Source: a virus. From it: 35,214 nucleotides of DNA. This document shows, piece after piece, positions 1-33,869 of the stretch. Every line of letters begins with the position of its first letter. The first letter of the stretch is position 1. The stretch is taken from the IMG/VR virus record IMGVR_UViG_3300034082_002107, positions 1-35,214 of that record; one strand, given 5' to 3'. The notes under the pieces are model-generated. The model made no database searches. It was not told the DNA's origin and saw only the letters and a list, made by a program, of their open reading frames with translations. The position numbers and the translations under genes are program-made.

Positions 1-114
1 TAATCTTTTTAACAATTTTTGAGTTAAACTTGATGGTAAACTGTCTTCACTAATTATTTGAAGACCCATTATTTCTCTTACTCTGTTAATTTCACTTAAA
101 ATTTCTTTTTTCAT
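1..114 (-). CDS. Partial leader-peptide protein, C-terminus outside window
   Basis: Only the first 38 codons are in the window. The product starts MKKEILSEINRVREIMGL and continues to I-I-S-E at residues 20-23. This is the same leader style as the PPK2-SleB fusion (LLTEVSKIKNNMGL), with an (I/L)-x-E site matching the T4 prohead-protease consensus. A TATTTAT element lies 4 nt upstream of the ATG. The 995-residue gene ends 12 nt upstream on the same strand. Nothing can be said about the body of the protein. Confidence 0.75.
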   Translation of the reverse strand, partial: MKKEILSEINRVREIMGLQIISEDSLPSSLTQKLLKRL

Positions 115-118
115 GTTA

Positions 119-125
119 ATAAATA
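119..125 (-). promoter_or_regulatory. TATTTAT start-proximal element
   Basis: TATTTAT on the minus strand, 4 nt before the ATG of the partial gene. It belongs to the TATTTAT class that precedes most leader-peptide genes in this window. Confidence 0.5.
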
Positions 126-126
126 T

Positions 127-3114
127 TTATTCATCAGCTTTAATCGCTTCATTTTTAGCCGCTTCATCAAGCCTTCTTATTAAATCATCAGTTTTTTTAA
201 TTTCTTCTTTTACCTGTTGTACTGAAATTTGGTTTTTAATTTTTTCGAATTCTTCACCAAATATTTTTTTACCAACCGCATTTATAAAATCCTTACTCTC
301 GTTGGGGTTATTTTTAAGTCTTTCATAAAGTGAATCGGCCTCTTCAGGAGTATCAACACCCCTATTTTTCATTTCCCATTCAAAGGCTTTCCATTTAGTT
401 TCATCTAAAGGTACTTTAAATATATTTTGAGAAATCTGATTCGCATAAATAAACATTTTATACCCCATATTCAACATGACTGGTGAAAAAATAATAGGTA
501 GTTTTACACCAATCTCCCTAAATATTTTAACCGCAATATTTTTCCATTGGGAGCCAAATTGATTTTTTAACCATTTATCTAAAATATCTTTTCCATAAAC
601 CTGAACTTGTCTCATAAATCTTGGGGTATTTATGATATCATATAAATGTCTTCTTTCAGTCTTTGATAACGATGTCACAAAATTTCTCATTTTTGCGCCA
701 GTATTCGGATTAGCATCTTTAAGCTTATTAAATACTGACAATTCAGCCCAATCACCAAATCCTGACAAGAATTTTTTCTCAAATCCCGGTGTGTCAACTA
801 TAAATGATAACATTGCAGATGCTAAATCAATTTTAGCCATCTCTTCATTTCCAGCTAATTTATTTCGATACGCTGAGTAAACATTTAATCCAATATCAAC
901 AGACATTCTCGACAAAATTGCCAATTCCAATGGAATACCTAAAGCTGAAAATGCTGGAGGAAACACCAACGATGCTAAAAGAACACCTCCCATAGTAATT
1001 TTCCATCCGTGTTCATCCCACCATTCATCAGGACAAGGAATGGTATAATTAACATAACCTGATGGTAATGAAGAATAATATTGACCAACAATATAACCTT
1101 TAAACTCTCTTTGTCCTGAGGCAATTGTTTTTAACTCCTTATTCATACCAGGACAATCCTTAAGTAATTTTTTTATTGTTGATTCAACCACTGAATCTGT
1201 TATGTCGTCAATCGGGTAATCTCCAGTGTCAGTTGTTCCAGCATATAATGAACTCATAATACCCAACTGTGAACCAGGATTTTTAGAAATATGCATTTTA
1301 ACAGCATTTTTAACCAAAGGACTATTCAAATAAAAATCTTTCGAACCAGGTGCCCCTGGTAAATAAGTTTGAATTAAATCGTAATCTTCAGGATAAAATT
1401 GAAGGAGTAAATCTATTTGGTCTTCAGGTAATTTTAAAAACTTAATCATCCATTTACCAACATCACCATTAGTTTCTTTGTTAGCAAAATCTACAACACA
1501 ATTAGGATATAGTGATTCGTTTTCCAACGTATGTTTCATAAAATCAGGAAAACTAGAAAACAAATCATTATCAAAATTAAGACCTCTTCCTCCTTCAGTT
1601 ACAATTTTTCTTCCGTATTTAACTCCATTTACCTCAACAGGTTCTGTACACCATTCTGATAACCAATCAACTAAAGTTTTAACTTGTTCATCGGTTAAAA
1701 TACTAAATACAGGACCTAAATTAATTGTTTGTGGAGGAAGTTCAAACCCCTCACTTTCTAAAGAATATGTCGGTAAATCAGAGTCATCACCTCTACTGTA
1801 AATAGGTATTACTTTACCATTAACATCATAAATACTTATTTTCAAAAACTTGGAGTCTTTAACACTTTTTTCAAACTTTTCTTTTTTATCTTTTTGGGTG
1901 TCACCTTTTTCAGATAAAACATCATCAGGTGGAATGTTCGAATACGCATTGGCTCTCAACCAACTTAACATTAAATCGGAAATTTGATTATAACCGGAAA
2001 TATCTTCCGAACCAACACTCCAAGTTCCTGAACTTGACTTATTAACCAATGACTTTATAATATTATTAATATCATTTTCTTTATTTGGATTAGTTTCATC
2101 AAAACCCATCTCATATCCAAATTTGTAATTTCCGTCATTAATATAATCAGACAAAACTTTATGCCATTTATAAGTTTTACCCCAAGTATATGGAGGTTTA
2201 ACAACATCCTTATCTGACATAAGGCCTAATTGTACTAATGCGTATTGAATATCTAAAATCTTATTCCCATATTCTGGATATCCTTTTTCAGTGTATCCTT
2301 TTAATCCTTGTTGTTCTTGTTTTTCTTTAGTTACAAATTGTGATGGAGAGTACTGATATTGTATTAGACTAGATAATTTAAATTTATCAATTAAATCTTT
2401 CCAATTTGGTTGTATTGGTGGTTGGTAATTAAAACTTTTTGGATTTTTATTATATTGTTTTAATTTTTTTTCCCAAACTTCGTAATCAACTAATAAAATT
2501 AATGGACCATACTTATCCACATTATATTTAAAATCTTTTACTTCTGTTGGAGTTGATATTGTGTTATCTTTAAAGCTTAAACTAGATTTAAATACTTTTG
2601 GATTTTTATTAATTAAGTTTTTTAACTCTTCTAAAGATAACTGTGAAACTTTTTCAGCAAAAACAGTTATGATATTGTCTTTACTTGTACCCGCACTAAC
2701 TCGAGCCTCACCTTTACCAGTGTTAGATTCATATAATTTAATTAATTGCTCAATTGAGTATTTTCTAAGGGTTTCTTTGGTTAAAACTTGTGGTTTTGAT
2801 GTTGTTTGTGGATTTGGATTGTTAATTGATGGAGTTTTAGAATAAAATGATGGGTAGTTTGATTGTAAACTATTACAAAATTTATCAACACTTTCCTTAT
2901 TTTTTGGTGCAAATCCTGACCATGTGTAATTTCTTGGTTGCATTTTACAATTTGTAATTGCGTCCTTATAAACGGGATTTTTTGGGACTCTATTTGGGTC
3001 CGGTTGTTCCGATAATATTTTAACCTTAGAAATATTTTCAGACAAGGTTTCTTTATTATCGTATTTCATCAATAACAAAACCCTCTCTAATAATTCTTTT
3101 TGATTCTTTTCCAT
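127..3114 (-). CDS. Large (995 aa) leader-peptide protein of unknown function, probable virion cargo
   Basis: The N-terminus (ELLERVLLLMKYDNKETLSE, then VKILSEQ) has two L-S-E sites, at residues 24-26 and 34-36, like the other leader proteins. Most of the body is low-complexity-poor and unrecognised. A stretch near residues 283-300 (YGNKILDIQYALVQLGL) vaguely recalls peptidoglycan-binding type 1 repeats, which is weak. Residues 705-735 are a long hydrophobic segment with Gly and Pro, and a second hydrophobic patch lies near the C-terminus, so it may insert in a membrane. The gene follows the 83-residue Gly-rich gene by 3 nt and is probably co-transcribed with it. Size and leader fit an injected or internal virion protein (inference). 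The gene is certain; the function is unknown. Confidence 0.8.
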   Translation of the reverse strand: MEKNQKELLERVLLLMKYDNKETLSENISKVKILSEQPDPNRVPKNPVYKDAITNCKMQPRNYTWSGFAPKNKESVDKFCNSLQSNYPSFYSKTPSINNPNPQTTSKPQVLTKETLRKYSIEQLIKLYESNTGKGEARVSAGTSKDNIITVFAEKVSQLSLEELKNLINKNPKVFKSSLSFKDNTISTPTEVKDFKYNVDKYGPLILLVDYEVWEKKLKQYNKNPKSFNYQPPIQPNWKDLIDKFKLSSLIQYQYSPSQFVTKEKQEQQGLKGYTEKGYPEYGNKILDIQYALVQLGLMSDKDVVKPPYTWGKTYKWHKVLSDYINDGNYKFGYEMGFDETNPNKENDINNIIKSLVNKSSSGTWSVGSEDISGYNQISDLMLSWLRANAYSNIPPDDVLSEKGDTQKDKKEKFEKSVKDSKFLKISIYDVNGKVIPIYSRGDDSDLPTYSLESEGFELPPQTINLGPVFSILTDEQVKTLVDWLSEWCTEPVEVNGVKYGRKIVTEGGRGLNFDNDLFSSFPDFMKHTLENESLYPNCVVDFANKETNGDVGKWMIKFLKLPEDQIDLLLQFYPEDYDLIQTYLPGAPGSKDFYLNSPLVKNAVKMHISKNPGSQLGIMSSLYAGTTDTGDYPIDDITDSVVESTIKKLLKDCPGMNKELKTIASGQREFKGYIVGQYYSSLPSGYVNYTIPCPDEWWDEHGWKITMGGVLLASLVFPPAFSALGIPLELAILSRMSVDIGLNVYSAYRNKLAGNEEMAKIDLASAMLSFIVDTPGFEKKFLSGFGDWAELSVFNKLKDANPNTGAKMRNFVTSLSKTERRHLYDIINTPRFMRQVQVYGKDILDKWLKNQFGSQWKNIAVKIFREIGVKLPIIFSPVMLNMGYKMFIYANQISQNIFKVPLDETKWKAFEWEMKNRGVDTPEEADSLYERLKNNPNESKDFINAVGKKIFGEEFEKIKNQISVQQVKEEIKKTDDLIRRLDEAAKNEAIKADE

Positions 3115-4243: not shown

Positions 4244-4711
4244 TTAAATGATTTTCTTGAACCACTTAAGTGATTCATTGATTTGTTCTTGTACTAACGA
4301 AGCTTTTGATTTTACTTTAATACCTTCTTCAATTTCTTCCATAGTATATTTTTTACTTGAGCATTGTTCGCATTGTTCTCCCTCTTTCATTTCACCACCA
4401 CACTGTTCACATTGTTCTCCTTCACTCATAGATGAACACTGTTCACACATTTCACCTTCATATAAACCACTACATTGTTCACAAACTTTTTTAAGTTTTC
4501 TATTAACTTCTGTATTAGTATATTCCTTAACTTCACCCATATTAGATACTGTAATTCCTTTTTTATCTCGATTTAAATCCTCGACATTTAAAGGAGTTTC
4601 ATTTGGGACATTATTTCCTCTAGTAACATATCCATCATATTGACTTCTATGTTTACTCTGTATTGATTCTTTTTCTTCTTTAGTAATATTCAAAAAAAAT
4701 GCGTTTTTCAT
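4244..4711 (-). CDS. Leader-peptide protein with four C-E-Q-C knuckles (zinc-ribbon-like)
   Basis: 155 residues. The leader LNITKEEKESIQSKHRSQ matches the 'LTEEEK.SI' type also found at 23637-24053. The middle part carries four CEQC motifs separated by Gly/Glu-rich loops (GLYEGEM, SMSEGEQ, GGEMKEGEQ), which would make two four-Cys zinc ribbons. The C-terminus is a predicted helix (INESLKWFKKII). Zinc ribbons often bind nucleic acid or protein; no target can be inferred. A TATTTAT element lies 16 nt upstream of the ATG. It is probably co-transcribed with the acidic gene downstream. Confidence 0.8.
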   Translation of the reverse strand: MKNAFFLNITKEEKESIQSKHRSQYDGYVTRGNNVPNETPLNVEDLNRDKKGITVSNMGEVKEYTNTEVNRKLKKVCEQCSGLYEGEMCEQCSSMSEGEQCEQCGGEMKEGEQCEQCSSKKYTMEEIEEGIKVKSKASLVQEQINESLKWFKKII

Positions 4712-6131: not shown

Positions 6132-6755
6132 ATGAAATATCTAATTAAAGAATCTCAAAAGCAAATTATCCTTGAAGCAATAAATGATAGGATTAAAGAA
6201 GTTCAAGAAGATGGTGTTGAACTAACTAAAAAGATTGTTGAAGACACTAAATCACATGCTTCAATAAACTTAAAGATGATGCTTACATGGGGTGCTGCAA
6301 TTGGAGGGTTTATGGGTCCAATTATGCAATGGTTAAATGGACAAGTACCAGAGTTAACAGAAAAAGATTCATCATTGATTGCTGCCGGTATTGCGTCAGT
6401 AATATTCTTTCAAGAAAGAAGTTTTATCAACAAATCAATTATTAAAAAGATTAAAGAAGATGGACTTGAAGAACCATTTAAATTGGGAGCAATTAAAGCC
6501 AATCAACTTAAAACTGTTTTGGCAGGTTTTTTAAAGAGTTTGAATTTATCAGCATTTACTGTAACAAATATGTTAAGTTACGCATTCTTGGTTCCAGTCA
6601 TACCAATGATATATGATGCCGTTTCTGAAGGTGTGTGGGATATGAGAGATACTGAAATGTTAGTTAAATCATTATCGGCGTTTGGATTGATAACAATTTC
6701 AGGTAATTTCTTAAAACGACTTATGGATTTAATCGTTGATAGGATTACTAAATAA
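6132..6755 (+). CDS. Leader-peptide membrane protein
   Basis: 207 residues. It begins MKYLIKESQKQIILEAIND, a variant of the 'MKYIITESQ' leader. It has about four hydrophobic segments: near residues 51-68 (TWGAAIGGFMGPIMQWL), 80-93, 137-160 (TVTNMLSYAFLVPVIPMIY) and 176-195. It is an integral membrane protein, unless the hydrophobic parts are buried in the virion. A membrane protein with a virion leader would fit an injected channel or exclusion factor (inference). It starts 7 nt after a TATTTAT element and ends in an 8-nt overlap with the convergent cupin gene. Confidence 0.75.
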   Translation: MKYLIKESQKQIILEAINDRIKEVQEDGVELTKKIVEDTKSHASINLKMMLTWGAAIGGFMGPIMQWLNGQVPELTEKDSSLIAAGIASVIFFQERSFINKSIIKKIKEDGLEEPFKLGAIKANQLKTVLAGFLKSLNLSAFTVTNMLSYAFLVPVIPMIYDAVSEGVWDMRDTEMLVKSLSAFGLITISGNFLKRLMDLIVDRITK

Positions 6756-7015: not shown

Positions 7016-7615
7016 TTACCAAAATCCTGGATAAGTTTTACCACCCCACAAATAACCAAAACGGTTTAAACGACATGCCCAATAACCAGCACTCAATCTA
7101 TCTTTCTTTTTAGAACACTGATGTCTTGCGGCAAATGATTTACGAGCTTTAGGATTTGACACCTTAGCAGTTAAACCACCTTTAACATCGCCAAATGAAA
7201 TTTTCTTAACTCTACCTGTTGATGGGTTTTTAACATAGACAACATATTTCTTACCACCACCACTATTTCTTCTTGGTTTACCAAGTTCAACTTTCTTTCC
7301 GTTATACTCAGCTTCAGAAATAAATGATTCTTCCATCGGAGTATCCAAGTAAACAACTCTACCACTTGATAATCTAACTTGTGTTCCAAAATCAGATTCA
7401 ACAAGTTCAACATCATCCTCATTTAATTCAACCATTCCTTCATAATATAACTCACGAGCTTCGTTAATAACATTAAAGAATTCCTCAGAACCAAATCTAA
7501 AGATATTATCATTCAATGGAATTTCATTTGTTATATGATAATTAAGGTGTTCCGAAATAAGTGGTTTTTCTACTGATTCTGTAAGAACTTTTTTGATTAG
7601 TTTTTTGATATTCAT
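7016..7615 (-). CDS. Leader-peptide protein with DUF5872-like C-terminal domain
   Basis: 199 residues. The leader NIKKLIKKVLTESVEKPLISE has candidate cleavage sites L-T-E (11-13) and I-S-E (20-22). The C-terminal ~95 residues start at AEYNGKKVELGKPRR, continue through KISFGDVKGGLTAKVSNP and AARHQCSKKKDRLSAGYWACR, and end in a Gly/Trp tail. This block is very conserved in phage contigs and I recall it as DUF5872. Two Cys and a His could bind metal. Its start overlaps the stop of the upstream small membrane gene (ATGA), so translation is coupled. Confidence 0.8.
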   Translation of the reverse strand: MNIKKLIKKVLTESVEKPLISEHLNYHITNEIPLNDNIFRFGSEEFFNVINEARELYYEGMVELNEDDVELVESDFGTQVRLSSGRVVYLDTPMEESFISEAEYNGKKVELGKPRRNSGGGKKYVVYVKNPSTGRVKKISFGDVKGGLTAKVSNPKARKSFAARHQCSKKKDRLSAGYWACRLNRFGYLWGGKTYPGFW

Positions 7616-10251: not shown

Positions 10252-10950
10252 ATGAAAGAATTATTAAATAACCCTGAAACTATAAAAAATTTTAAACTTT
10301 TACATTATATCCTATTAAGTAATGGTCTTACTCGTGTCAGTAATGACTTTTATGTTGATTACGACGGGAATGTTGATTATCACTTCTCACCTTGGACTAA
10401 TAAAGGTGGAGCTTATGATATTATACCTAATAAATTATTTGATTTTTTAGATAATTTTTTTGACACTATTAAAGATGAAGTTTTAGATTCATTAGAAGGT
10501 GATGGTGATTCTAGAGCAACGGTGTCATGTGAGTATTCAACAACAGACAAAACTTTAATAATTGAAGAAAATATTCAAACTATGGGTTATGAATCATATT
10601 ACCAAGAGTTTGAAATTGACGAAAAGGAATTACTTGAAGATATGGTTCAGTGGAAAGAAGATGGTAAACTTAAAATTAGTGTTAATTTTAGCGGTGATGG
10701 TGATTCAGGTTATATTGATGACGTTGGTCTAATCAATGATAGTGATGACAAACATTATGAATTTACAGCGGTTTGGGAAAATAAGTTATACAACATTTTG
10801 GAACAAAATCATGGTGGATGGGAAATAAATGAAGGCTCTGAGGGAACATTTATAATTAACAATGAAAACCAAACTATAGAACTAGATTTTCGTATGAATG
10901 TTGAAGAATCCTCAACAGGTTACGAATTTAAACACCAATTTGAGTTTTAA
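10252..10950 (+). CDS. DUF6878-like phage protein
   Basis: 232 residues from MKELLNNPETIK. An earlier in-frame ATG would overlap the previous gene and the TATTTAT element. The C-terminal half has the pattern ISVNFSGDGDSGYIDD, then YNILEQNHGGWEINEGSEG and an E-rich closing strand. I recognise this 'SG.GDSG.IDD ... GGWE.N.G..G' signature from phage proteins labelled DUF6878 (memory, not searched). The N-terminal half is acidic and unrecognised. The stop interlocks with that of the convergent gene (TTAA). Confidence 0.7.
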   Translation: MKELLNNPETIKNFKLLHYILLSNGLTRVSNDFYVDYDGNVDYHFSPWTNKGGAYDIIPNKLFDFLDNFFDTIKDEVLDSLEGDGDSRATVSCEYSTTDKTLIIEENIQTMGYESYYQEFEIDEKELLEDMVQWKEDGKLKISVNFSGDGDSGYIDDVGLINDSDDKHYEFTAVWENKLYNILEQNHGGWEINEGSEGTFIINNENQTIELDFRMNVEESSTGYEFKHQFEF

Positions 10951-11264
10951 TAAACCTGAATAGTTCTTTGTGGTCTGTCGTCACCAAAGTCAGGACAGAA
11001 ATAGGTATTATTACCATCGTGGTAAATTGTTCCACCAACTCCATTAGGAATTTTGTGTTTTTCATGGAATTTTTCATCCAAATCTATTTGGTAATTCCCA
11101 TCATGAATTAAAAAACATAAATTTTCATAACCACACTTATATTGTTGGTCTTTGTTTTTATGTCTCATAAATTCGTCAAAAGACATTACATATCTCGCAT
11201 CTTCGTTAATGTGTCTTTTAACGATGTATTCTAATTGACTTTCTGTAATAATAAACTTTTTCAT
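10947..11264 (-). CDS. Leader-peptide protein, 'IITESQL' type
   Basis: 105 residues. The leader KKFIITESQLEYIVKRHINE joins features of the two main leader types (TESQ and VKR) and ends in I-N-E at residues 19-21. The body is small and polar, with Cys, Tyr and Gly (KCGYENLCFLIHDG, GVGGTIYHDGNNTYFCPDFG). Three Cys and several His could bind metal or form disulfides. TATTTAT lies 5 nt upstream. It is downstream of the PPK2-SleB gene on the same strand (14 nt gap) but has its own element. Confidence 0.75.
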   Translation of the reverse strand: MKKFIITESQLEYIVKRHINEDARYVMSFDEFMRHKNKDQQYKCGYENLCFLIHDGNYQIDLDEKFHEKHKIPNGVGGTIYHDGNNTYFCPDFGDDRPQRTIQVY

Positions 11265-11278: not shown

Positions 11279-12940
11279 TCAAACAATTGGTTTATAAAAT
11301 TTATGATTTCCGATTGTTGTAGTGTATTTTAATTTGGAATAATCCCAACTTGGTTTAATTGACGTTGTATGGTAAAATTCAGCACCTTTTGTATTATCAG
11401 TACCTTTCTTTTTAATATAATTTTTAACAAGGTTTTGAGCGGTTTCCCAAGCGGAACCATCCTTAGGGTTTTTTAAAATAGATTTATTTATCTTATTTAA
11501 AAAATTATCAGTAGTTGTATCATTCCAAATTGAAAATTGTTTTTTTTGTAAAACAACATCTTTTGGCGATTTTTTTAGACTATCTGCTCTATTTCTAATA
11601 ACATTTGCAACTGCTTTCATTCCTTCAGAACCTTCTCCTCTAGCCTCCCCCCATATGGTTGCGGCAACAATTAAATCATCTTTAGTTAAATTGTCTTTTT
11701 CTATTGGTTTTATTGTTTTTACCATTTTCTTAGCGCCGTCAATAACACCTTCTTTTGATTTATCACTAGCACCCGTCAACTTGTTAACGTCATCCCAAAA
11801 AGTATCTGAGTTTTGATTTTGTTTTATACCCATAATTTTATTCACATCATCAAAAACTGATTGTTCGTTAACATTTGGTTTTAAAACCGTCATTGCTTCA
11901 GGAAAATCTTTATTTAAAACATCTTCGTCTTTATTATCGTAAGGAATATTTTGTAAAACGTATCTAATTGAATTTAAACCTGAAATTTTCTTATCATTAG
12001 AATCTAAAACAACCCAAGGGTGGTTAACTGTTGATGTCTTATCAAAAAGTTTTTGTTTATACTCTGTGAACTTTTCCCATACATCTTGCATCTTTTCATC
12101 ATTCTCAGAATACTTCCAATATTTCAATGGTGACTTTTGTCTGAAATCAAATCTTTTAGCCTGAGTTTCTTTATCTATTGAGAACCAAAGTTTAAATAGA
12201 TAATCACCATCAACAACCAATGATTCTTCAAAGTCCTGAACATTATCCATAAAGTCCTCATACTCTTCTGAAGAACCGTAACCCATTACAGGTTCAACTA
12301 AACCTCTATTATACCAACTTCTATCAAAGAAGTTTATCTTACCTTTCTCAATTTGATTTCTGTATCTATCCCACCAGTTTTTTCTTTCGTCAGGTGTCGG
12401 AATGCCAAGAGCAATAACTTTATAATATCTTGGATTTAAGTTTTCAGTAAACTTTTTAATTGTTGAACCTTTACCTGCTGAATCTCTCCCTTCAAAAACA
12501 ATAATAACAGTTTTACCTGTTTGTTTTAACCATTCTTGTAATTTTAAAAGTTCAACCTGTAAGAAAAATATTTCTTTCTTGTAAATGTCTTTATCTAAAA
12601 TTGACGGTTCCTCTTCGGGACTAACAACTTCTTTTTTAGTTTTTCTTTTTTCTAATGACTTAGTTAGTTGTTTAAAAAATTCAAAAACATTAATATCCTT
12701 ATTACCTTTTAATTTCAAAGTTTTTAAAATACCTCTTGTAAGTAATCCAAAATCAACTAACCCTTCTTTTGAATATTCTTCAATCTTATTAATAAATTTT
12801 TGAATTTGAGCACTATATACTTTGTTGTCTTTTAAAATTGCAACGAGAGATTTAACCTCAGGGCTATACTTTGGTTTGTCAGCTTCTGTCAAACCCATAT
12901 TATTTTTTATCTTACTAACTTCAGTTAATAAATTCCTCAT
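11279..12940 (-). CDS. Polyphosphate kinase 2 fused to SleB-like cell-wall hydrolase, with leader peptide
   Basis: 553 residues in three parts. (1) Leader MRNLLTEVSKIKNNMGLTE with L-T-E at 5-7 and 17-19. (2) PPK2 domain about residues 110-335: Walker A GRDSAGKGS (151-159), Walker B DRSWYNRG (206-213), lid residues KRFDFRQKSPLKYWK; PPK2 transfers phosphate between polyphosphate and nucleotides. (3) Hydrolase_2/SleB domain about 420-550: IWGEARGEGSEGMKAVANVI with the catalytic Glu motif GEARGE (431-436), QFSIW, GAEFYHT and a closing IGNHKFYK; SleB-type enzymes cut the glycan of peptidoglycan. A linker holds two copies of a DDVNK(I/L) motif (365-370 and 383-388). TATTTAT lies 4 nt upstream. I know of no described PPK2-SleB fusion. 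Confidence 0.9.
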   Translation of the reverse strand: MRNLLTEVSKIKNNMGLTEADKPKYSPEVKSLVAILKDNKVYSAQIQKFINKIEEYSKEGLVDFGLLTRGILKTLKLKGNKDINVFEFFKQLTKSLEKRKTKKEVVSPEEEPSILDKDIYKKEIFFLQVELLKLQEWLKQTGKTVIIVFEGRDSAGKGSTIKKFTENLNPRYYKVIALGIPTPDERKNWWDRYRNQIEKGKINFFDRSWYNRGLVEPVMGYGSSEEYEDFMDNVQDFEESLVVDGDYLFKLWFSIDKETQAKRFDFRQKSPLKYWKYSENDEKMQDVWEKFTEYKQKLFDKTSTVNHPWVVLDSNDKKISGLNSIRYVLQNIPYDNKDEDVLNKDFPEAMTVLKPNVNEQSVFDDVNKIMGIKQNQNSDTFWDDVNKLTGASDKSKEGVIDGAKKMVKTIKPIEKDNLTKDDLIVAATIWGEARGEGSEGMKAVANVIRNRADSLKKSPKDVVLQKKQFSIWNDTTTDNFLNKINKSILKNPKDGSAWETAQNLVKNYIKKKGTDNTKGAEFYHTTSIKPSWDYSKLKYTTTIGNHKFYKPIV

Positions 12941-13258: not shown

Positions 13259-13693
13259 TTAACGTCTTCTAATGTGTCTTCTGATACTCTCAGCCATTGG
13301 GTCTCTTGGTTCTTCATCTTGCATGTCACCCATAGGAGTTTCCATACCTGTAAAATTTTCATCAGAATCATAAGAATTATATTCTTCTTCATCTGAATTC
13401 ATTTGATTACTTTCGTAATCTTGGATGATAGACTTAAGTTCCATTGCCTCTTGTTCTTTTCCTTCAGTATTTCTTAATTGACTATAAAAATCTTTAATAT
13501 AGTCCCATCCTGCAATACCTAAAAGTGCAATAGTTGTTCCAACCATTGTTGCAATTGCTCCACCAGTACTCATGGCTTCAGGATTAAAGAAGTTTTCAAC
13601 ATCTTCATTAACTCTATTTCTTTTAGTTTCTTTAACTACTGTTTTAATTAATCTAGTTAATTCTGATTCTGATAATCTTACAACTTTTTTCAT
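13259..13693 (-). CDS. Leader-peptide protein with one membrane helix
   Basis: 144 residues. The leader KKVVRLSESELTRLIKTVVKE is a diverged 'RLTESDL' type with Glu22 at the expected position. A hydrophobic segment, about residues 43-63 (TGGAIATMVGTTIALLGIAG), is followed by a helix and a long acidic, Met/Asn-rich tail that ends in the basic cap RRHIRRR. The same plan (leader, membrane segment, charged tail) recurs at 24137 and 25724, so these may be a set of injected membrane proteins (inference). TATTTAT lies 16 nt upstream. Confidence 0.75.
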   Translation of the reverse strand: MKKVVRLSESELTRLIKTVVKETKRNRVNEDVENFFNPEAMSTGGAIATMVGTTIALLGIAGWDYIKDFYSQLRNTEGKEQEAMELKSIIQDYESNQMNSDEEEYNSYDSDENFTGMETPMGDMQDEEPRDPMAESIRRHIRRR

Positions 13694-17999: not shown

Positions 18000-18010
18000 T
18001 AGGTAAATTT
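17978..18010. terminator. Bidirectional terminator overlapping both stop codons
   Basis: A 33-nt near-perfect palindrome (14-bp stem, 5-nt loop) flanked by A and T runs. The stop of the CAP gene (17997-17999) and of the OmpA-like gene (17992-17994) both lie inside it. Confidence 0.75.
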
Positions 18011-22647: not shown

Positions 22648-23025
22648 TTATAAATATTTTTTAATTACATTAACCTTAAATGGTCCCAAAGGATTTGGGA
22701 AGTTTTCTTTTACTTGAGAAGGGTAACTGTATTCTAAAAAATATACTTTTTCACCATCAGTTATAAATCTTATTGGTGCTGGACCTTTATTTACGTTTTC
22801 AAAAAATACTATCATATCAGGTTCATAGTTAAAGAATTTTGTAGCTTCTTTAATTTCTCCATACATTTTTTGGTCTGTAAAAGCAAAATCTCTCCAATTT
22901 TGTTTCATTTTATAACCTTTTTTTCTTAACTCATCGTAAAAACCAGGATTTTGTGGTTGCTCAAGAATTACTCTTTTAACCAATCTTACTAAATCTGACT
23001 CAGTTAATCTTACTACTTTTTTCAT
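22648..23025 (-). CDS. Leader-peptide protein, 'RLTESDL' type
   Basis: 125 residues. It carries the archetypal leader KKVVRLTESDLVRLVKRVIL with I-L-E at 20-22. The body (about 100 residues) has helix then beta character: FYDELRKKGYKMKQNW, EATKFFNYEPDMIVFFENV, IRFITDGEKVYFLEY. No family is recognised. TATTTAT lies 14 nt upstream and a terminator follows 20 nt after the stop, so this is a stand-alone unit. Confidence 0.75.
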   Translation of the reverse strand: MKKVVRLTESDLVRLVKRVILEQPQNPGFYDELRKKGYKMKQNWRDFAFTDQKMYGEIKEATKFFNYEPDMIVFFENVNKGPAPIRFITDGEKVYFLEYSYPSQVKENFPNPLGPFKVNVIKKYL

Positions 23026-23636: not shown

Positions 23637-24053
23637 TTACATTTGATTTCTTAGTTTATCTTCAAGACCTCTTAAATCGTCTCTTTTTGTTGTATAAACT
23701 CCGAATCCTTTATCATCGTCTTGATTCGCTCCGAAACCTTTTTTCAATTTACTCAATATCAAATTTCCAACAACTTCAGGTTTTTCCATGATAAAATTAG
23801 CCAAGTCAATTAATTCATCATTTCCTTTTTCTGAAAATTCAAAACTAGACAAGATATCATCAAGTATTCTATTAATTTGTCTCGATTCTGTTTTAGTTGC
23901 AGTTTCGTCCTCTTTTAAAAATAATTTTACATCTCCCGACTTGGTGTTAATCAATTTTGAAAAGTTTTCTGTAACAACATTCATTCCCCCTGTATGTTGA
24001 CCACGTATGGAGTTCTTTTCTTCCTCCGTTAAGTTATTTAATAAATGTTTCAT
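23637..24053 (-). CDS. Leader-peptide protein, 'LTEEEK' type
   Basis: 138 residues. The leader KHLLNNLTEEEKNSIRGQHT is shared with the cysteine-knuckle protein at 4244. It is followed by candidate cleavage sites V-T-E near residue 29 and L-K-E near residue 48 (KSGDVKLFLKED). The stretch KSGDVKLFL resembles the 'GDVKPL' part of the leader at 22579. The body is helical (RILDDILSSFEFSEKG, LIDLANFIMEKP) with a basic C-terminus. Unknown function. TATTTAT lies 16 nt upstream. Confidence 0.75.
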   Translation of the reverse strand: MKHLLNNLTEEEKNSIRGQHTGGMNVVTENFSKLINTKSGDVKLFLKEDETATKTESRQINRILDDILSSFEFSEKGNDELIDLANFIMEKPEVVGNLILSKLKKGFGANQDDDKGFGVYTTKRDDLRGLEDKLRNQM

Positions 24054-24136: not shown

Positions 24137-24613
24137 TTATGGAATAAGTAAAGTAGAAACTTTAGGTAAATTTAATTTTGATAAGATTGGTAACCCAACA
24201 ATCAATCCTAAAATTGCAACCATCTCCGAAAGTATCAGTCTTCTTTCTTCTTTTGTAAAAACTTTACCAGTTGTTTCTAACTCTTCTAACTTTTTATTCA
24301 ATAATTCGGCTCTTCGTTTTAAGTTATTTATTTGTTTTTCATCAATCTTACCTTTAACTTTATCAATTGTTCGATTAATTAATAACCTCAGTTTGTTTTT
24401 CATAGAAATTAAAGTTGTTTTTATTTGTTCTTTTTTTTCTTCAAAATTTTCTTTTCTAACCATAGAAATTTGGTCACGGAATTGCTCAATGTCCTTTTTT
24501 AACATGTATTTTTCATCTTCTGAAAACAATCCGTCATCTGGTACTTGTTCAGAAATTACTCTTTTAACTAATCTTATCAAATCTGATTCTGTTAATCTTA
24601 TAACTTTTTTCAT
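24137..24613 (-). CDS. Leader-peptide protein with coiled coil and C-terminal membrane helix
   Basis: 158 residues. The leader KKVIRLTESDLIRLVKRVIS has I-S-E at 20-22. A long charged helix with coiled-coil character follows (YMLKKDIEQFRDQ, RKENFEEKKEQIKTTLI, INNLKRRAELLNKKLEE). The C-terminus is hydrophobic (LILSEMVAILGLIVGLPILSK, in part). The plan of leader, coiled coil, then tail anchor could place it at the inner membrane after injection (inference). TATTTAT lies 17 nt upstream. Confidence 0.75.
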   Translation of the reverse strand: MKKVIRLTESDLIRLVKRVISEQVPDDGLFSEDEKYMLKKDIEQFRDQISMVRKENFEEKKEQIKTTLISMKNKLRLLINRTIDKVKGKIDEKQINNLKRRAELLNKKLEELETTGKVFTKEERRLILSEMVAILGLIVGLPILSKLNLPKVSTLLIP

Positions 24614-24647: not shown

Positions 24648-24959
24648 TTAAAATTCCATGTTAATTCTCTTAATTTCTATTCCAAACTTATCGGAATAAT
24701 ATTTTTCAATACCTTCACCCACCGAATTTCCAAATAAAACACGCATCTTTTCAAAAAAAGAATAATCAATCCATAATGTCCCGTGATTATTTCTGTGGGC
24801 AATTCTTACAGAGTGACCATTACTATCAACGTCTCTCCTACTAAAGAAATGAATATACCCATCATCTTTGTCAATGTTCATTTCAACATCACCATAGGTA
24901 GCATCCATGTACTTCTTAATAACCTCATTTAACTTACTTTCGGTAATAATATACTTCAT
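24648..24959 (-). CDS. Leader-peptide protein, 'MKYIITES' type
   Basis: 103 residues. MKYIITESKLNEVIKKYMD is followed by a small alpha/beta domain: EMNIDKDDGYIHFFS, LWIDYSFFEKMRVLFG, then a C-terminal helix and strand VGEGIEKYYSDKFGIEIKRI. The same order is seen at 33540 (FFSLDIYD, GRWVENTLQMRV) and 32257 (LWWRYDFF), so these are paralogues. Function unknown; a clear prohead-type cut site after the leader is not obvious. TATTTAT lies 6 nt upstream. Confidence 0.75.
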   Translation of the reverse strand: MKYIITESKLNEVIKKYMDATYGDVEMNIDKDDGYIHFFSRRDVDSNGHSVRIAHRNNHGTLWIDYSFFEKMRVLFGNSVGEGIEKYYSDKFGIEIKRINMEF

Positions 24960-25027: not shown

Positions 25028-25333
25028 TTATTTCATTTTTTCCCAAACCGCCTTACAAAAATTGGTTTCTCCGATATCAATCTTAATTGCAGTAACATAA
25101 CCCTTTCCTCTTGCAATGTTACCTGTTTGTGATTGACAAGTCATTTTATCAACACTTGATGGTGTTTTAATAAGACATATTTGGTTTTCAGGGTCAGTTA
25201 AATTTGATTTACACCATGTATCTTCTTCAGCCTTTTTTTCGATAATTGCCTCAGATAATAATGGTCTTACATCACCAATGGTTGATTCCATTAAATTGAA
25301 AAATCTGTTTTTGTATTGTTCTATATTGTTCAT
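25028..25333 (-). CDS. Leader-peptide protein, 'RFFNLMESTIGD' type, Cys-containing
   Basis: 101 residues from MNNIEQYKNRFFNLMESTIG, nearly identical over the first 28 residues to the HEIGH peptidase leader and ending L-L-S-E-A. Upstream in-frame codons run through the G-rich repeat and are rejected. The body has four Cys (W-C-K, QIC, MTC, NFC) and Gly, suggesting a small disulfide-bonded or metal-bound domain. TATTTAT lies 4 nt upstream. The strong leader match on a different body supports modular swapping. Confidence 0.75.
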   Translation of the reverse strand: MNNIEQYKNRFFNLMESTIGDVRPLLSEAIIEKKAEEDTWCKSNLTDPENQICLIKTPSSVDKMTCQSQTGNIARGKGYVTAIKIDIGETNFCKAVWEKMK

Positions 25334-25337
25334 AATA

Positions 25338-25344
25338 ATAAATA
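25338..25344 (-). promoter_or_regulatory. TATTTAT start-proximal element
   Basis: TATTTAT 4 nt before the ATG at 25333. It is immediately downstream, in the direction of transcription, of G-rich repeat copy 1. Confidence 0.45.
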
Positions 25345-25354
25345 TATCATAAAA

Positions 25355-25400
25355 TAAAAAAGGGGTAGGGGGGATTGGGACAACGGGAAAAAAATATTTT
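25355..25400. repeat. G-rich intergenic repeat, copy 1
   Basis: A-run, GGGGTAGGGGGGATTGGG, ACAACGGG, A-run. It shares its order of blocks with the copies at 26917 and 27832 but has extra G residues. It fills the gap between two minus-strand leader genes where other gaps have hairpin terminators. Confidence 0.8.
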
Positions 25401-25710
25401 ATACAAAAATAACATCCCACACCGCAGTGGAATCTCCGTTTTTGTCTTTAGGAAATAATAATGTAAACATGGTTCCAATCTTTTCTTCAATATCTGAACC
25501 CTCATCATAAGCGTGATAACTACGACCACCTGTATTTAGTATAATTTGATATACAGGATATGTATCATTTCTAAATTTCCAATTTTTTGTTTTTATCTCA
25601 ACATCACCATTAAACCATTCGTATTCAGATAATAAGTTCTCAACATAATCCTTTAAGAAATTAACTTTCCTCATTTGTAAATTCTGAGACTCGGTGATAA
25701 TGTATTTCAT
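25399..25710 (-). CDS. Leader-like protein, 'MKYIITESQ' type
   Basis: 103 residues. MKYIITESQNLQMRKVNFLKD, then VENLLSEYEW with an L-S-E site near residue 29, then a beta-rich domain (GDVEIKTKNWKF, YPVYQIILNTGG) and a C-terminal helix (EEKIGTMFTLLF). It follows the gene 25724-26431 by 13 nt with no TATTTAT between, so it is the second gene of that unit. Confidence 0.7.
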   Translation of the reverse strand: MKYIITESQNLQMRKVNFLKDYVENLLSEYEWFNGDVEIKTKNWKFRNDTYPVYQIILNTGGRSYHAYDEGSDIEEKIGTMFTLLFPKDKNGDSTAVWDVIFV

Positions 25711-25723: not shown

Positions 25724-26431
25724 TTATTTAGCCCTTTTCACCCTTTTTTCAGGAGGTCTTACAAATTTAATATTATTTATTTCTTCCCAGTTCTCAATAA
25801 ATTGTCTTGCAACTGTTTCAGGAATTCGTTTATCCATTAAATGTTTAATTGCGTCTTGAATTAATGTGTTTCTTGGGTCATCAAAATTTTTCAATTCAGA
25901 GTCAACCAATTTAGCCATTCTTGAATCTTTTAATTTTTTAGGTAGTGGTTTAGTACCAATCTTATGTGGTATTCTTGTTAATAAGTTTGTTCCTACTAAT
26001 GCGGCGGTAATTATACCAGCAACCATTGCGCTATCAATGTCTTGGTGTTGTGGATTCAAGGTATTAATAGTAACCGCTCCTGTCATAAGAGACAATACTG
26101 TAGTTGCAAATCGTGTGATTATTTTTGTAAGCTCAAGTTTATTTTTTTCAGCTTCGGTATCAACAGTAATACCCCTTCTAGAAAAACCTATTGATTCACT
26201 AACCGTATCACCTTCAATAACACTATCAACAACATCTTCAGCAACGTCTTTAAATTCATCTTCCCCAATAGAGTTATATAGTTTACCAAGAGTTAATAAA
26301 TCTTCTTTTGATATGTTATTAAGAATTATATTGGTTACCTCGTCAGTTATTTGTTGTTCCTCGTTTTCACGAATAATACGTTTAACAATTCTTGTCAAAT
26401 CAGATTCAGTTAATCTTACAATCTTTTTCAT
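25724..26431 (-). CDS. Leader-peptide protein with membrane segments, 'RLTESDL' type
   Basis: 235 residues from MKKIVRLTESDLTRIVKRII with I-R-E at 20-22. In-frame codons ahead of it are promoter sequence. An acidic helical stretch follows (VTNIILNNISKEDLLTLGKL), then a hydrophobic pair around residues 100-145 (FATTVLSLMTGAVTINTL, MVAGIITAALVGTNLL), then a basic C-terminus ending PPEKRVKRAK. It resembles in plan the proteins at 13259 and 24137. TATTTAT lies 6 nt upstream. Confidence 0.75.
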   Translation of the reverse strand: MKKIVRLTESDLTRIVKRIIRENEEQQITDEVTNIILNNISKEDLLTLGKLYNSIGEDEFKDVAEDVVDSVIEGDTVSESIGFSRRGITVDTEAEKNKLELTKIITRFATTVLSLMTGAVTINTLNPQHQDIDSAMVAGIITAALVGTNLLTRIPHKIGTKPLPKKLKDSRMAKLVDSELKNFDDPRNTLIQDAIKHLMDKRIPETVARQFIENWEEINNIKFVRPPEKRVKRAK

Positions 26432-26503: not shown

Positions 26504-26884
26504 TCACCAACGTCTTGGATTAAACCATCCGAGATGTCTACCGGTTTCCTTAAAGCTTTGACGATTATCATCTTCTTCTTCATCTTCTTTACCAAGAAGG
26601 ACATAATTCAACTCGTCAAGAACTGTATATTTATCAACCTCCTCATCATTAACATTCAAAAAGATATCACGTCCAAGATATTTCATCAACGGGGTACCTC
26701 CTTCAACATGCTCATTATATAACTCAATAATACTCTGTGGTGAAGCCGTTTCACCAACTTTATTTCTAACACCCTTAAATCCGGCAGATATGAAAATATC
26801 TTTTTCTTCATACCTATTTTCCTTAACAACTCTTTTAACTATTTTAACCAAATCTGATTCAGTTAATGTTATAACTTTTTTCAT
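26504..26884 (-). CDS. Leader-peptide protein, 'LTESDL' type
   Basis: 126 residues. The leader KKVITLTESDLVKIVKRVVK has Glu22 at the conserved site (V-K-E, Val instead of Ile/Leu). The body (DIFISAGFKGVRNKVGETAS, IIELYNEHVEGGTPLMKYLG) is unrecognised, with an acidic patch and an aromatic-basic end (RHLGWFNPRRW). TATTTAT lies 14 nt upstream; a terminator follows. Confidence 0.75.
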   Translation of the reverse strand: MKKVITLTESDLVKIVKRVVKENRYEEKDIFISAGFKGVRNKVGETASPQSIIELYNEHVEGGTPLMKYLGRDIFLNVNDEEVDKYTVLDELNYVLLGKEDEEEDDNRQSFKETGRHLGWFNPRRW

Positions 26885-26974: not shown

Positions 26975-27346
26975 ATGAACCTACATGAAAGCATCCAAAG
27001 AATTAAAGTATTAATGGAATCTAAGTCAGAATTTAATTATGCTGACAAAAATGATTTAAATATCGTTAGAGAAGATAACTACCTTAACAAGTACTATGAA
27101 AATATAGATATGTTAGAAACTGAAGATGGAGATGTTTATTTAAAACATGAAGATTTCCATAATAATTTCATTAAGTTAGATGATTTAATCAGAGACTACA
27201 GATGGAGCTCATATGGTCCACAATACGAGGACGAAATAAAATTGGCCATCGGTATACACAAAGAAGAAAAAGAATTTATTACTAACTTTCTGTTAGGAAC
27301 AAAATACGAATATCTAATTCCACATATTCTTAAGCAAAAACCTTAA
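26975..27346 (+). CDS. Leader-peptide protein, 'ESIQRIKVLMES' type
   Basis: 123 residues from MNLHESIQRIKVLMES with L-M-E at 13-15. The start is chosen over an upstream ATG because that one lies inside the G-rich repeat. The body is acidic and helical (YADKNDLNIVREDNYLNKYY, EDFHNNFIKLDDLIRDYRW). No family is recognised. It is the only plus-strand gene between 18 and 30.3 kb and ends 6 nt from the convergent gene's stop. Confidence 0.7.
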   Translation: MNLHESIQRIKVLMESKSEFNYADKNDLNIVREDNYLNKYYENIDMLETEDGDVYLKHEDFHNNFIKLDDLIRDYRWSSYGPQYEDEIKLAIGIHKEEKEFITNFLLGTKYEYLIPHILKQKP

Positions 27347-30796: not shown

Positions 30797-30797
30797 T

Positions 30798-31464: not shown

Positions 31465-31479
31465 TTTTTCTTGATTTTG

Positions 31480-31536: not shown

Positions 31537-31589
31537 ATTAACAACTATAAATATAGTGTATATTATGTATATTGTCCATAGGTAAATGT

Positions 31590-31867: not shown

Positions 31868-31888
31868 CATATGTTTCATATCACTATA

Positions 31889-32252: not shown

Positions 32253-32256
32253 TACT

Positions 32257-33051
32257 ATGGTTATTACAGATAGATTAAAACAAATTATTTTTAAACACCT
32301 ATATAGAGAGTTAGGTGATTGTGAGATTATTCCTTATAATGGGTCTATATGGTTCATTAATAGGGATAATAAACATTGGTACTTTGAACTTGATGAGTCA
32401 GGTACTTTATGGTGGAGATACGATTTTTTTAATTCGTTTTTTCAAATATTCTCCATGAGTTCGGATGATTTTTGTCCTGTTCTATCTTCTTGGGTGGAAG
32501 AGGTCTTAAATCATAAGGTATCCACAACCCAGGATAGCCTGTGTAACGTATGTAAACTGGTGGAAGAGGTCTTAAATCATAAGGTATCCACAACCTTCAT
32601 TCCACTTCCAATTACAACGGACAAGGTGGAAGATGTATTAAATCATAAGGTATCCACAACGTGCGATGTTAAAGTTCGTGTTCCTTGGAAGGTGGAAGAT
32701 GTATTAAGTCATAATGTTAAGGTGTCTACAACTACCATTCTCAAATACCCCGAGCATTCATTGGTGGAAAAGGTCTTAAATCATAAGGTATCCACAACCG
32801 ATTCACTTGATTACGTTGGAAGAATTGAGGTAGAAGAGGTATTAAATCATAGGGTATCTAGAACCTGCCAAACAAGCGTTTATTGTGATAGGACGGTGGA
32901 AGAGGTCTTAAATCATAAGGTATCCACAACGCAGAATTTGAATTATGTCGGCCAAGGACTGGTGGAAGATGTATTAAATCATAAGGTATCTACAACGGAA
33001 TCGTATTTTGGACCCTTCACAAGAGGGGTGGAAGAGGTATTAAATCAATAA
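32257..33051 (+). CDS. Leader-family paralogue with C-terminus expanded into a 22-residue repeat array
   Basis: 264 residues. Residues 1-79 (MVITDRLKQIIFKHLYRELG, FINRDNKHWYFELDESG, LWWRYDFFNSFFQIFSMSSD) match the body of the 'MKYIITES' family seen at 33540 and 24648, but the TES leader is lost. In the paralogue the domain ends G-R-WVENTLQMRVTYT; here W-VEEVLNHKVSTT is followed by eight more copies of that 12-residue unit, separated by 10 variable residues. Only this frame is open through the array. Repeat 4 carries an in-frame 6-nt insertion. Promoter is the host type. The stop abuts the stop of the next gene with no gap. Function unknown. Confidence 0.75.
   Translation: MVITDRLKQIIFKHLYRELGDCEIIPYNGSIWFINRDNKHWYFELDESGTLWWRYDFFNSFFQIFSMSSDDFCPVLSSWVEEVLNHKVSTTQDSLCNVCKLVEEVLNHKVSTTFIPLPITTDKVEDVLNHKVSTTCDVKVRVPWKVEDVLSHNVKVSTTTILKYPEHSLVEKVLNHKVSTTDSLDYVGRIEVEEVLNHRVSRTCQTSVYCDRTVEEVLNHKVSTTQNLNYVGQGLVEDVLNHKVSTTESYFGPFTRGVEEVLNQ
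32493..33047 (+). repeat. Nine 36-bp repeats with eight unique 30-bp spacers (66-bp period), CRISPR look-alike
   Basis: Repeats start at 32493, 32559, 32625, 32691, 32763, 32829, 32895, 32961 and 33027. Each begins GGTGGAAGAG or a one-base variant and most end GGTATCCACAAC. The ends carry GTGGA/TCCAC inverted symmetry. Every spacer is exactly 30 bp and dissimilar in sequence. Repeat 4 is 42 bp (in-frame 6-nt insertion); repeat 9 is truncated after about 21 bp. No cas gene is in the window. Evidence that it is coding: it is in frame with a recognised protein domain, has no stop in eight spacers, and some repeat changes are synonymous. Confidence 0.9.
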
Positions 33052-33507
33052 TTAGTTATTCTCTAAAGTACCTGTATAGAAATCTAATACCATATCAAAA
33101 ATATCATCTAATACATCTTTTGGTAGTTCTTCATAAGACATATAACTTTCATCTAAAATTTGTGAGTATTTATATCCACCATAATGAAACACTGTAACAT
33201 CTTCTTTATTTATCATTTCTATTTGTGAAAGTTCACCGTCTTCATCCTTGAGGACTATTGGGTTTTCATTCATATCCATTAGTACAATATATTCATCATC
33301 GGTTGTTTCTACTACTTCCTTAATAATCTTAATCTTATTGTTTGTTGTAAGGAACTCATCACCTAACACATTTATAAGGTATTCTATACCACCGAACATT
33401 TCTCCTGTCTTTAGTAACCCCGCCTGACTTGCGATAGTTAATAACTTCATCTGTTTTACGGTGTATTCTTCCCTTAATATTCTTTTTATGTTTTGTTGTA
33501 GGTTCAT
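33052..33507 (-). CDS. Leader-peptide protein with 'FGGIEYLI' domain
   Basis: 151 residues. The short leader MNLQQNIKRILREE has L-R-E at 11-13. Residues 20-55 (MKLLTIASQAGLLKTGEMFG, GIEYLINVLGDEFL) match the N-terminal domain of the protein at 20666. Then a beta-rich, acidic block follows (YIVLMDMNENPIVLKDEDGE) and a C-terminal helix (LPKDVLDDIFDMVLDFY). TATTTAT lies 6 nt upstream. It is divergent from the gene at 33540 with a 32-nt gap carrying both elements. Confidence 0.75.
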   Translation of the reverse strand: MNLQQNIKRILREEYTVKQMKLLTIASQAGLLKTGEMFGGIEYLINVLGDEFLTTNNKIKIIKEVVETTDDEYIVLMDMNENPIVLKDEDGELSQIEMINKEDVTVFHYGGYKYSQILDESYMSYEELPKDVLDDIFDMVLDFYTGTLENN

Positions 33508-33513
33508 AATATT

Positions 33514-33533
33514 ATAAATATAATTATATTTAT
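33514..33533. promoter_or_regulatory. Divergent pair of TATTTAT elements
   Basis: Minus-strand TATTTAT at 33514-33520 and plus-strand TATTTAT at 33527-33533, each 6 nt before its ATG (33507 and 33540). Confidence 0.55.
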
Positions 33534-33539
33534 TATCAT

Positions 33540-33869
33540 ATGAAATATCTTATAACAGAATCACAATTAGATAAAGTAATCTTTAGATATTTGGATATTA
33601 AGAACTTTATTCAGATTAAAAGAGGAAACACAATATACTTTGTTAATTCGGAAGATGATAAATATGCCCAAATCAGATATGATAGAAACGATGGTTGGTG
33701 TTATATACGCCATGGATTAATTTACGAAATTTCTTCTTTCTTTTCTTTGGACATATATGATTCTAAGGAAGTTATCGGTAGATGGGTTGAAAATACTCTA
33801 CAAATGAGGGTTACTTATACCCGTTTGGTCTTTCACGATGTGAACAATTTGTTTAAAATACCTAACTAA
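33540..33869 (+). CDS. Leader-peptide protein, 'MKYLITESQ' type
   Basis: 109 residues: MKYLITESQLDKVIFRYLD, beta strands (IQIKRGNTIYFVN, YAQIRYDRND), then FFSLDIYDSKEVIGRW and the helix-strand WVENTLQMRVTYTRL. It is the best single-copy reference for the domain that became the repeat array at 32257. Its stop overlaps the convergent phosphoesterase gene by 8 nt. Confidence 0.75.
   Translation: MKYLITESQLDKVIFRYLDIKNFIQIKRGNTIYFVNSEDDKYAQIRYDRNDGWCYIRHGLIYEISSFFSLDIYDSKEVIGRWVENTLQMRVTYTRLVFHDVNNLFKIPN

Follow-up and report, generated by a model that had tools for sequence, protein, structure and literature searches.

The stretch of viral DNA analysed here, IMG/VR record IMGVR_UViG_3300034082_002107 (35,214 bases, the window below; records of this class are often fragments), encodes a series of proteins whose bodies differ and whose N-termini are short leaders carrying (I/L)-x-E, the type of site after which the T4 prohead protease gp21 cuts. 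We consider it highly probable that these leaders are a T4-like capsid-targeting system that has been enlarged to tens of genes per genome and serves an exchangeable cargo, and we infer that the proteins bearing them would be packaged, cut and injected. The leader, its motif and boundary, the shared upstream DNA, the swapping and the turnover were read from sequence, as were the protease and the matching propeptides, which were found in close relatives.

A first-pass annotation of the window had listed about 20 unrelated proteins that begin with a single family of leaders ending at (I/L)-x-E. That the leaders are there is confirmed: all 20 starts were recovered on translation, each with an N-terminus of the quoted kind (that at 114 belongs to a gene cut by the window edge after 38 codons), and 19 of the 20 have at least one (I/L)-x-E within residues 1-35, while in the protein at 4711 none was found in the first 40 residues. 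The density of the motif in residues 1-35 is 1.80 sites per protein versus 0.54 ± 0.13 in random 35-residue interior windows drawn from 19 of the 20 proteins (the cut-off protein is too short), and none of 5000 draws equalled the leader density. Across the whole window, (I/L)-x-E with its Glu at residues 7-11 occurs in 20 of 60 called genes (4.3 expected, p=4e-9), and four further leader-type N-termini had been missed, at 6132 (+), 24959 (-), 25710 (-) and 33540 (+). The bodies are unrelated, as had been said, at the sensitivity applied: no two of the 13 window proteins caught by our leader regular expression match at E<=1e-3 over 30 residues. What did not hold was the single family, since at least four leader types can be told apart by eye. 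The statement that leaders end at (I/L)-x-E was right as to the motif and too simple as to the end, with no site in the protein at 4711, two leaders (13693 and 26884) ending in V-x-E at residue 22, and two sites in most leaders, at residues 7-11 and about 18-30; in the window the second site (E18-30) is linked to the first (E7-11) at p=0.05.

The same count, of genes with (I/L)-x-E whose Glu falls at residues 7-11, was made on whole genomes. In the relatives it gave 57 of 262 genes in G009 (15.5 expected, p=1e-17), 50 of 251 in G010 (14.4 expected), 64 of 340 in G001 (18.3 expected) and 54 of 362 in G002 (23.2 expected), which puts the excess at about 30-45 genes per genome. In all four, the second site (E18-30) is commoner in genes that have the first (p from 0.02 to 7e-9), and the two are not linked in T4 or crAss001; crAss001 has no significant excess of first sites either (8/93, 5.2 expected, p=0.15, last 5.7 kb left out).

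Outside the window we sought the commonest leader, MKK(V/I)(V/I)RLTESDL, with a degenerate DNA pattern encoding it. The pattern matched at least 120 IMG/VR viral stretches and one 3.2-kb contig in 257 Gb of bacterial and archaeal genomes, so that the leader is a phage feature; the single contig, L275 (DFKH01000024.1, 3195 bases), had been binned as an alphaproteobacterium and is probably a misbinned phage piece. A tblastn search of 50,697 phage records with two MKK-type leaders gave no match at E<=10, and the only matches to a joined query were two of chance level, in Vibrio phages and outside the leader. That short queries of this kind can be found follows from the recovery, at 5e-8 in the same kind of search, of a leader of the cultured Flavobacterium phage immuto, to which we return below.

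From the matching loci 132 distinct N-termini were read, of which 122 are non-redundant in an ungapped test of residues 26-45; residues 1-12 are fixed by the search pattern, so the free evidence lies in the later columns. Column 22 is Glu in 114 of the 122 proteins, column 20 is I, L or V in 121 and column 15 is I or L in 119. Information stands at 3.88 bits per residue at 22, 1.25 at 23 and 0.80 at 24, and is 0.24-0.47 from 26 on; the Glu is followed by Q in 39 of the 122, by S in 20, by N in 14 and by E in 13. Over the 132 leaders, residues 10-22, taken as a helix, are strongly amphipathic, with a moment of 0.761 (0.344 ± 0.014 when shuffled, 0.281 for residues 26-38), and the net charge is +3, against -1 in the next 20 residues. 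Is it the protein or the DNA that is conserved? Across 28 leaders, different synonymous codons are used at the fixed residues (Thr ACT/ACC/ACA, Ser TCA/TCT/TCG/TCC), which shows that the leader is conserved as protein and rules out conservation of the DNA alone. Conservation of the MKK leader ends sharply at a predicted gp21-type site, one that the capsid protein of the same group also has.

Contig G009 (240,759 bases) runs colinear with the window along its stretch at about 7-41 kb, and 22,340 of the 35,214 window bases match at a mean identity of 86.8%. About 26 kb past the matching stretch G009 encodes a gp21-type protease (Peptidase_S77, E=1.9e-26), near which lie genes for a T4-type portal (1.6e-75) and a Gp23 capsid protein (2.8e-72). 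Gp21-type Peptidase_S77 is also encoded by G010, G012 and G014, relatives matched through polyphosphate kinase 2 (PPK2). Of 21 Gp23 relatives with a readable N-terminus, 19 have L-I-N-E and two L-I-Y-E, followed by A or S, at a site that we matched by eye to FLTE, followed by A, of T4 (there is no Gp23 gene in the window), and L-(I/V)-E stands at residues 16-21 in the proteases (22/22; at 38 in L126). This agreement in motif between Gp23 propeptide, protease N-terminus and leaders appears more telling than the co-occurrence of leader and protease, and with the protease in the relatives it supports the capsid-targeting reading that the first-pass annotation had proposed by analogy with T4.

To what extent are the leaders exchanged? 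A lenient leader regular expression, run on the window, the matching loci and four large contigs, caught 323 leader proteins, which fall into 195 body clusters, 146 of them singletons. These figures, and the per-genome counts of leader genes given below for the upstream element, are upper-side numbers owing to that leniency: the expression also picks up internal starts, some sugar or nuclease-like genes, and a sigma factor of G002, the relatives of which in G009, G010 and G001 are leaderless. One body, marked by RYMFFSNLEQ, has the leader MKKIKLTESELTNIVKRVLEE in G001, MKNLNNIIKKVLKE in G009 and MRNIDNIIRKVIKE in G002; likewise PPK2 begins with MRNLLTEVSK.KN.MGLTE or close variants in the group of the window, with MRNLNKHLINE or similar in others and with MQLLNEIDRIKSVMG in L209. 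Leader genes are also less well retained. Between the window and G009 at least half of the DNA is kept in 12 of 24 leader genes and 31 of 35 other genes (p=0.002), and between the window and G010 in 9 of 24 and 26 of 35 (p=0.007), which identifies the leader genes as the exchangeable ones. The set is interchangeable, as had been supposed, in that its genes turn over faster and one body may carry differing leaders in different phages.

The DNA in front of the leaders is shared as well. Among 22,454 pairs of leader genes with unrelated bodies, 84 have at least 80% identity over the 30 upstream bases, compared with 0, 0 and 2 in three shuffles, and the 30 bases in front of the gene at 24613 recur at 97% identity in L144 and L017, where the genes that follow have unrelated bodies. 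A TATTTATA element accompanies the leader: in 126 of 194 leader clusters TATTTATH occurs no more than 40 bases upstream (shuffle mean 13.5). TATTTAT or ATTTATA precedes 11 of 14 leader genes and 13 of 46 other genes in the window, 18/30 and 62/232 in G009, 14/20 and 56/231 in G010, 23/35 and 83/305 in G001, and 20/33 and 86/329 in G002 (p from 1.3e-3 to 1e-5 in these five sets); in immuto the same test gave 2/5 and 29/207 (p=0.16). The motif is also found upstream of the protease, scaffold-like and portal genes of G009, which suggests that it is a late promoter. A candidate for its recognition is a sigma-70-type factor of G009 with regions 1.2, 2 and 4 (201399-202199; L154:1399-2199). A different element, TAnnTTTG, is found in the 40 bases before 10 of the 46 non-leader genes of the window, among them those at 3422, 28360, 29744, 30374 and 32257, and before 0 of its 14 leader genes; we take it to be the Bacteroidetes -7 element, and these are likely host-type promoters.

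What do the leaders carry? The Pfam search covered 110 proteins (PPK2 of the window and the 109 longer of the 195 cluster representatives) and matched 23 families, many of which share a protein; of 20 proteins scanned singly, three had a match. The families include PPK2 and a cell-wall hydrolase (window), iron/manganese superoxide dismutase (G002), VanY, LysM, peptidoglycan-binding and lysozyme domains, and UPF0227, an alpha/beta-hydrolase-like family; the VanY, LysM and Phage_lysozyme matches are given for the set as a whole. The 28 families matched in PHROGs are for the most part endolysins, sigma factors and unknowns, and PADLOC gave three families, one of them strong (MzaA, E=1e-34). In L028:3754-4329 the UPF0227 domain starts at residue 27, six residues after the leader Glu at 21, and the superoxide dismutase domain starts at residue 36, with FFLTE at 25-29; both starts would fit a removable leader. 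Superoxide dismutase with a leader-like N-terminus occurs in G009 (L149:7623-9128) and G002 (L234:16081-16788), and that of G009 has about 270 further residues after the domain, with L-N-E-S shortly past it. Comparably, (K/R)-P-N-(I/V)-N-E-Q precedes the exchanged C-terminal domain in 7 of 7 aligned PPK2 fusions. The C-terminal part is Pfam Hydrolase_2 in the window and other stretches, partly lysozyme-like by eye, in L177-L188, and there is no C-terminal extension in L189 and the aligned L194-L209 members. The fusions in these two families are possibly polyproteins that are separated in the head.

Comparison with known systems places the leaders closest to T4. According to the relevant passages of PMC9026906, the first 10 residues of IPIII suffice for targeting, which resides mainly in residues 4 and 7 while processing resides in 8 and 10; gp21 cuts after L/I-x-E, with LIE-9 near its own N-terminus raised as a possible autocleavage site, and T4 has four internal proteins. 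The N-termini of IPIII (MKTYQEFIAE, cut before A) and gp24 (MAKINELLRE) may be set beside MKKVIRLTE and MKYLITE, in which the first (I/L)-x-E ends at residues 9 and 7. As in T4, a short N-terminal segment with (I/L)-x-E near residue 10 stands on differing proteins, and relatives of the window phage have a gp21-type protease, Gp23 and a T4-type portal; unlike T4, the motif is in excess by about 30-45 genes per genome, the leaders are of several types and mostly have another site near 22, and promoter-leader DNA is shared between genes. A conserved targeting sequence on highly diverse defence proteins has already been described for T-even phages (PMC3012670). In phage P1 the first 30 residues of DarB, an N-terminal packaging signal, are enough to carry a foreign protein into the head; this was demonstrated for DarB, and the passages of PMC9024508 that we cite describe no common leader on many genes. 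In phiKZ and SPN3US a gp21-related protease cuts many head proteins, some of them ejected, after Glu in a short motif (PMC9026906, PMC5694885). Most propeptides in those passages are longer than the window leaders (some exceed 100 residues, one has 20), SQE and STE are the sites at which the named homologues are cut, and no shared swappable leader is described there.

Two further comparisons concern the phages themselves. Chen et al. (2022, PMC9723584) describe bS21-encoding phages, with freshwater Bacteroidetes as their predicted hosts, in which bS21 lies on the reverse strand near the genes for portal, prohead protease and capsid, and in G009, similarly, Ribosomal_S21 (65756-65941, reverse strand, E=2e-10) sits between the portal gene at 63192 and the protease gene at 66499, with Gp23 at 68978. 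This fits a place for G009 among these phages; the cited passages differ in making no mention of leaders or targeting sequences, and raise the packaging of bS21 itself as a possibility. Phage immuto (NC_055915; host LMO8) has an annotated prohead protease and a relative of Gp23 that is 42% identical over 55% of the query. Two of its genes, KNV73_gp230 (25061-25456) and KNV73_gp083 (111675-112139), share the leader MKKQILSEQF(K/R)RMQ(F/K)LAGIITES, after which the bodies differ (a two-sequence comparison gave a 19-residue match of 37%, E=0.008), and the pair is present in four records, a RefSeq copy included. The motif TATTTATA lies upstream of one of the two. The immuto leader differs in sequence from those of the window group, and the genome-wide excess is weaker (20/212, 10.1 expected, p=0.003). 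Among the papers on capsid targeting that were listed, no title or abstract shown describes such leaders, the string LTESDL was not found in the literature texts searched, and literature listings gave no virion proteomics of immuto.

How might the system work? In the scheme that we infer, with its late timing, docking, cutting, packaging and injection, cargo proteins would be made late in infection with an N-terminal stretch of about 9-30 residues, which in the commonest leader type would form a positively charged amphipathic helix. The leader would dock the cargo into the protein core of the growing head. There, in the course of capsid-protein maturation, the gp21-type serine protease (Peptidase_S77) would cut the cargo leaders behind (I/L)-x-E, at the site in residues 7-11, at the one near residue 22, or at both. 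The freed cargo would stay loose in the head and enter the next cell with the DNA, and movement of a promoter-plus-leader DNA cassette between genes would make cargo easy to exchange. We give about an even chance to a further proposal, namely that this mobile cassette of late promoter and cleavable capsid-loading leader turns a captured gene into virion cargo, that each phage thereby holds its own kit of tens of proteins, including superoxide dismutase, polyphosphate kinase and cell-wall enzymes, and that some of these are polyproteins which the head protease cuts at internal (I/V/L)-x-E before delivery.

Several observations weigh against capsid targeting. The 35-kb window, a fragment, has no protease gene, and it is the colinear relative G009 that carries one. 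As to co-occurrence, a check that the first-pass annotation had proposed, Peptidase_S77 is over cut-off in 16 of 18 leader contigs of at least 107 kb and 22 of 34 of at least 62 kb (the 34 being those among 80 listed pattern-matching loci). Twelve of the 34 are without it (two of these measure 107 and 127 kb and are perhaps fragments), and it is also found in 8 of 16 control contigs of at least 62 kb (9 at E<=0.001), taken from 80 loci listed for an unrelated 17-base pattern; none of the 16 has the MKK leader pattern. With 16/18 versus 5/11 at 107 kb and above (p=0.03) and 22/34 versus 8/16 overall (p=0.37), the frequency of the protease in control contigs leaves co-occurrence with less weight and weakens it as proof. 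T4 itself shows a slight excess of motifs at residues 7-11 (23/235, 14.2 expected, p=0.02, 8 kb left out). The leaders agree with the T4 leader in motif and position, compared by eye, with no further similarity established, and the Gp23 site of immuto reads I-V-S-E, that is, V-x-E. Depending on the set, 21-40% of leader genes are without the TATTTAT motif; paralogues of the MKYLITESQ type mostly have no clear second site, and their N-terminus could belong to the fold; and known domains are rare among the leader-protein bodies. AlphaFold modelled the PPK2 fusion with low confidence (mean predicted local distance difference test score, pLDDT, of 53; a helix at 2-14, pLDDT below 50 at 16-23), and for that reason the model is not used as evidence. 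Virion or cutting data for the leader group were not found.

Could the leader be uncut and send its proteins elsewhere, to a membrane, a phage compartment or the tail, with E22 only capping a docking helix? A positive amphipathic helix could bind many partners, and several of the cargo domains that can be recognised belong to cell-wall enzymes or binders, as in tails, yet conservation stops sharply at I-x-E like the end of the Gp23 propeptide, the longer variants L041, L045, L047 and L084 still end in I/L-x-E, and the relatives have a T4-type head module; we regard this explanation as unlikely. It is less likely still that the leaders are mainly a regulatory or recombination module, in which promoter and first codons are copied and the amino acids hitch-hike. 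Upstream DNA common to genes with unrelated bodies and the link of leader genes to TATTTAT are what such a module would leave, but the synonymous variation described above and the retention of the motif by different leaders on one body speak against it.

The explanation to which we assign the smallest chance, a very slight one, is that the N-termini are shared folds of paralogous families in which (I/L)-x-E is frequent by chance, the proteins being rich in Glu and Ile. The MKYLITESQ genes are indeed tandem paralogues in G009, and a distant leaderless relative starts MVITDRL, whereas the leader proteins fall into as many as 195 body clusters and the excess of motifs at residues 7-11 reaches p=2e-18, being small in T4 and not significant in crAss001. 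A chance origin of the motif is ruled out by the interior draws, by the genome-wide counts set against T4 and crAss001, and by the near absence of the leader from bacterial genomes.

The leader genes of the window are collected in Table 1 with one non-member for contrast. Small genes of the MKYLITESQ type form arrays in G009 (3-9 kb) and G001 (32-34 kb); many of them have an individual TATTTAT motif, and some in G009 face genes starting MNLQ or MDLKESIKRILRE. The body of the contrast gene is weakly related to a G001 leader protein (29% identity over 62 residues, E=1e-6), and it contains VEEVLNHKVSTT-like units spaced at about 22 residues, eight complete and one truncated, for which TRF (Tandem Repeats Finder) called no DNA tandem array. 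HExxH motifs occur in three window proteins, HEWVH in 9189-9572 (-), HEIGH in 21185-22579 (-) and HEYTH in 30789-31184 (+); these are candidate metallopeptidases, and the second alone has a leader.

Table 1. Leader genes of the window and one contrast gene (sites: positions of the Glu of (I/L)-x-E; *missed in the first-pass annotation)
Product	Positions	Strand	Leader or start	Sites	Remarks
Cut-off gene	1..114	-	MKKEILSEINRVREIMGLQIISE	8, 23	TATTTAT upstream
995-aa protein	127..3114	-	MEKNQKELLERVLLLMKYDNKETLSENISKVKILSE	10, 26, 36	no Pfam match at E<=0.1
155-aa protein	4244..4711	-	MKNAFFLNITKEEKESIQ	none in first 40 residues	weak member; TATTTAT upstream; G002 look-alike (by eye) reads LNISEEEK
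207-aa protein*	6132..6755	+	MKYLIKESQ..	7, 15, 23, 37	TATTTATA upstream
199-aa protein	7016..7615	-	MNIKKLIKKVLTESVEKPLISE	13, 22	related G001 body bears RLTESDL leader
105-aa protein	10947..11264	-	MKKFIITESQLEYIVKRHINE	8, 21	TATTTATA upstream
PPK2 and cell-wall hydrolase fusion	11279..12940	-	MRNLLTEVSKIKNNMGLTE	7, 19	domain junction V-N-E-Q
144-aa protein	13259..13693	-	MKKVVRLSESELTRLIKTVVKE	9	V-x-E at 22
349-aa protein	13728..14777	-	MKTKFELLSE..	10, 17, 30	carboxypeptidase-regulatory-like domains
193-aa protein	14774..15355	-	MKRINLTENDIFNIVNKVIAE	8, 21	
466-aa protein	17992..19392	-	MSKRFLITENERNSILSLYTKKGIILE	9, 27	no Pfam match over cut-off
151-aa protein	19489..19944	-	MNKSYSKIRHIQKLNQLLENRIISE	19, 25	
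464-aa protein	21185..22579	-	MNNIENYRKRFFNLMESTIGDVKPLISE	16, 28	HEIGH motif
125-aa protein	22648..23025	-	MKKVVRLTESDLVRLVKRVILE	9, 22	
138-aa protein	23637..24053	-	MKHLLNNLTEEEKNSIRGQH	10	V-x-E at 29
158-aa protein	24137..24613	-	MKKVIRLTESDLIRLVKRVISE	9, 22	
103-aa protein*	24648..24959	-	MKYIITESK..	7, 12	
101-aa protein	25028..25333	-	MNNIEQYKNRFFNLMESTIGDVRPLLSE	16, 28, 32	leader near-identical to that of 22579
103-aa protein*	25399..25710	-	MKYIITESQ..	7, 29	
235-aa protein	25724..26431	-	MKKIVRLTESDLTRIVKRIIRE	9, 22	
126-aa protein	26504..26884	-	MKKVITLTESDLVKIVKRVVKE	9	V-x-E at 22
123-aa protein	26975..27346	+	MNLHESIQRIKVLME	5, 15	
151-aa protein	33052..33507	-	MNLQQNIKRILRE	13	TATTTATA upstream
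109-aa protein*	33540..33869	+	MKYLITESQ..	7	TATTTATT upstream
Contrast gene, non-member	32257..33051	+	MVITDRLKQII..		TAnnTTTG element upstream, no TATTTAT

If the leaders act as we propose, an N-terminal tag would reveal from sequence which of the many nameless genes of large phages enter the particle and the next cell, so that virion cargo would become predictable for uncultured phages and a list of candidate host-takeover and counter-defence proteins could be drawn up. It would also supply new short loading tags for T4-like protein-delivery particles. The idea can be tested now, since the cultured phage immuto has the arrangement in miniature. For the evolution of these phages, it would show that cargo is exchanged among them by means of a moving promoter-leader cassette.

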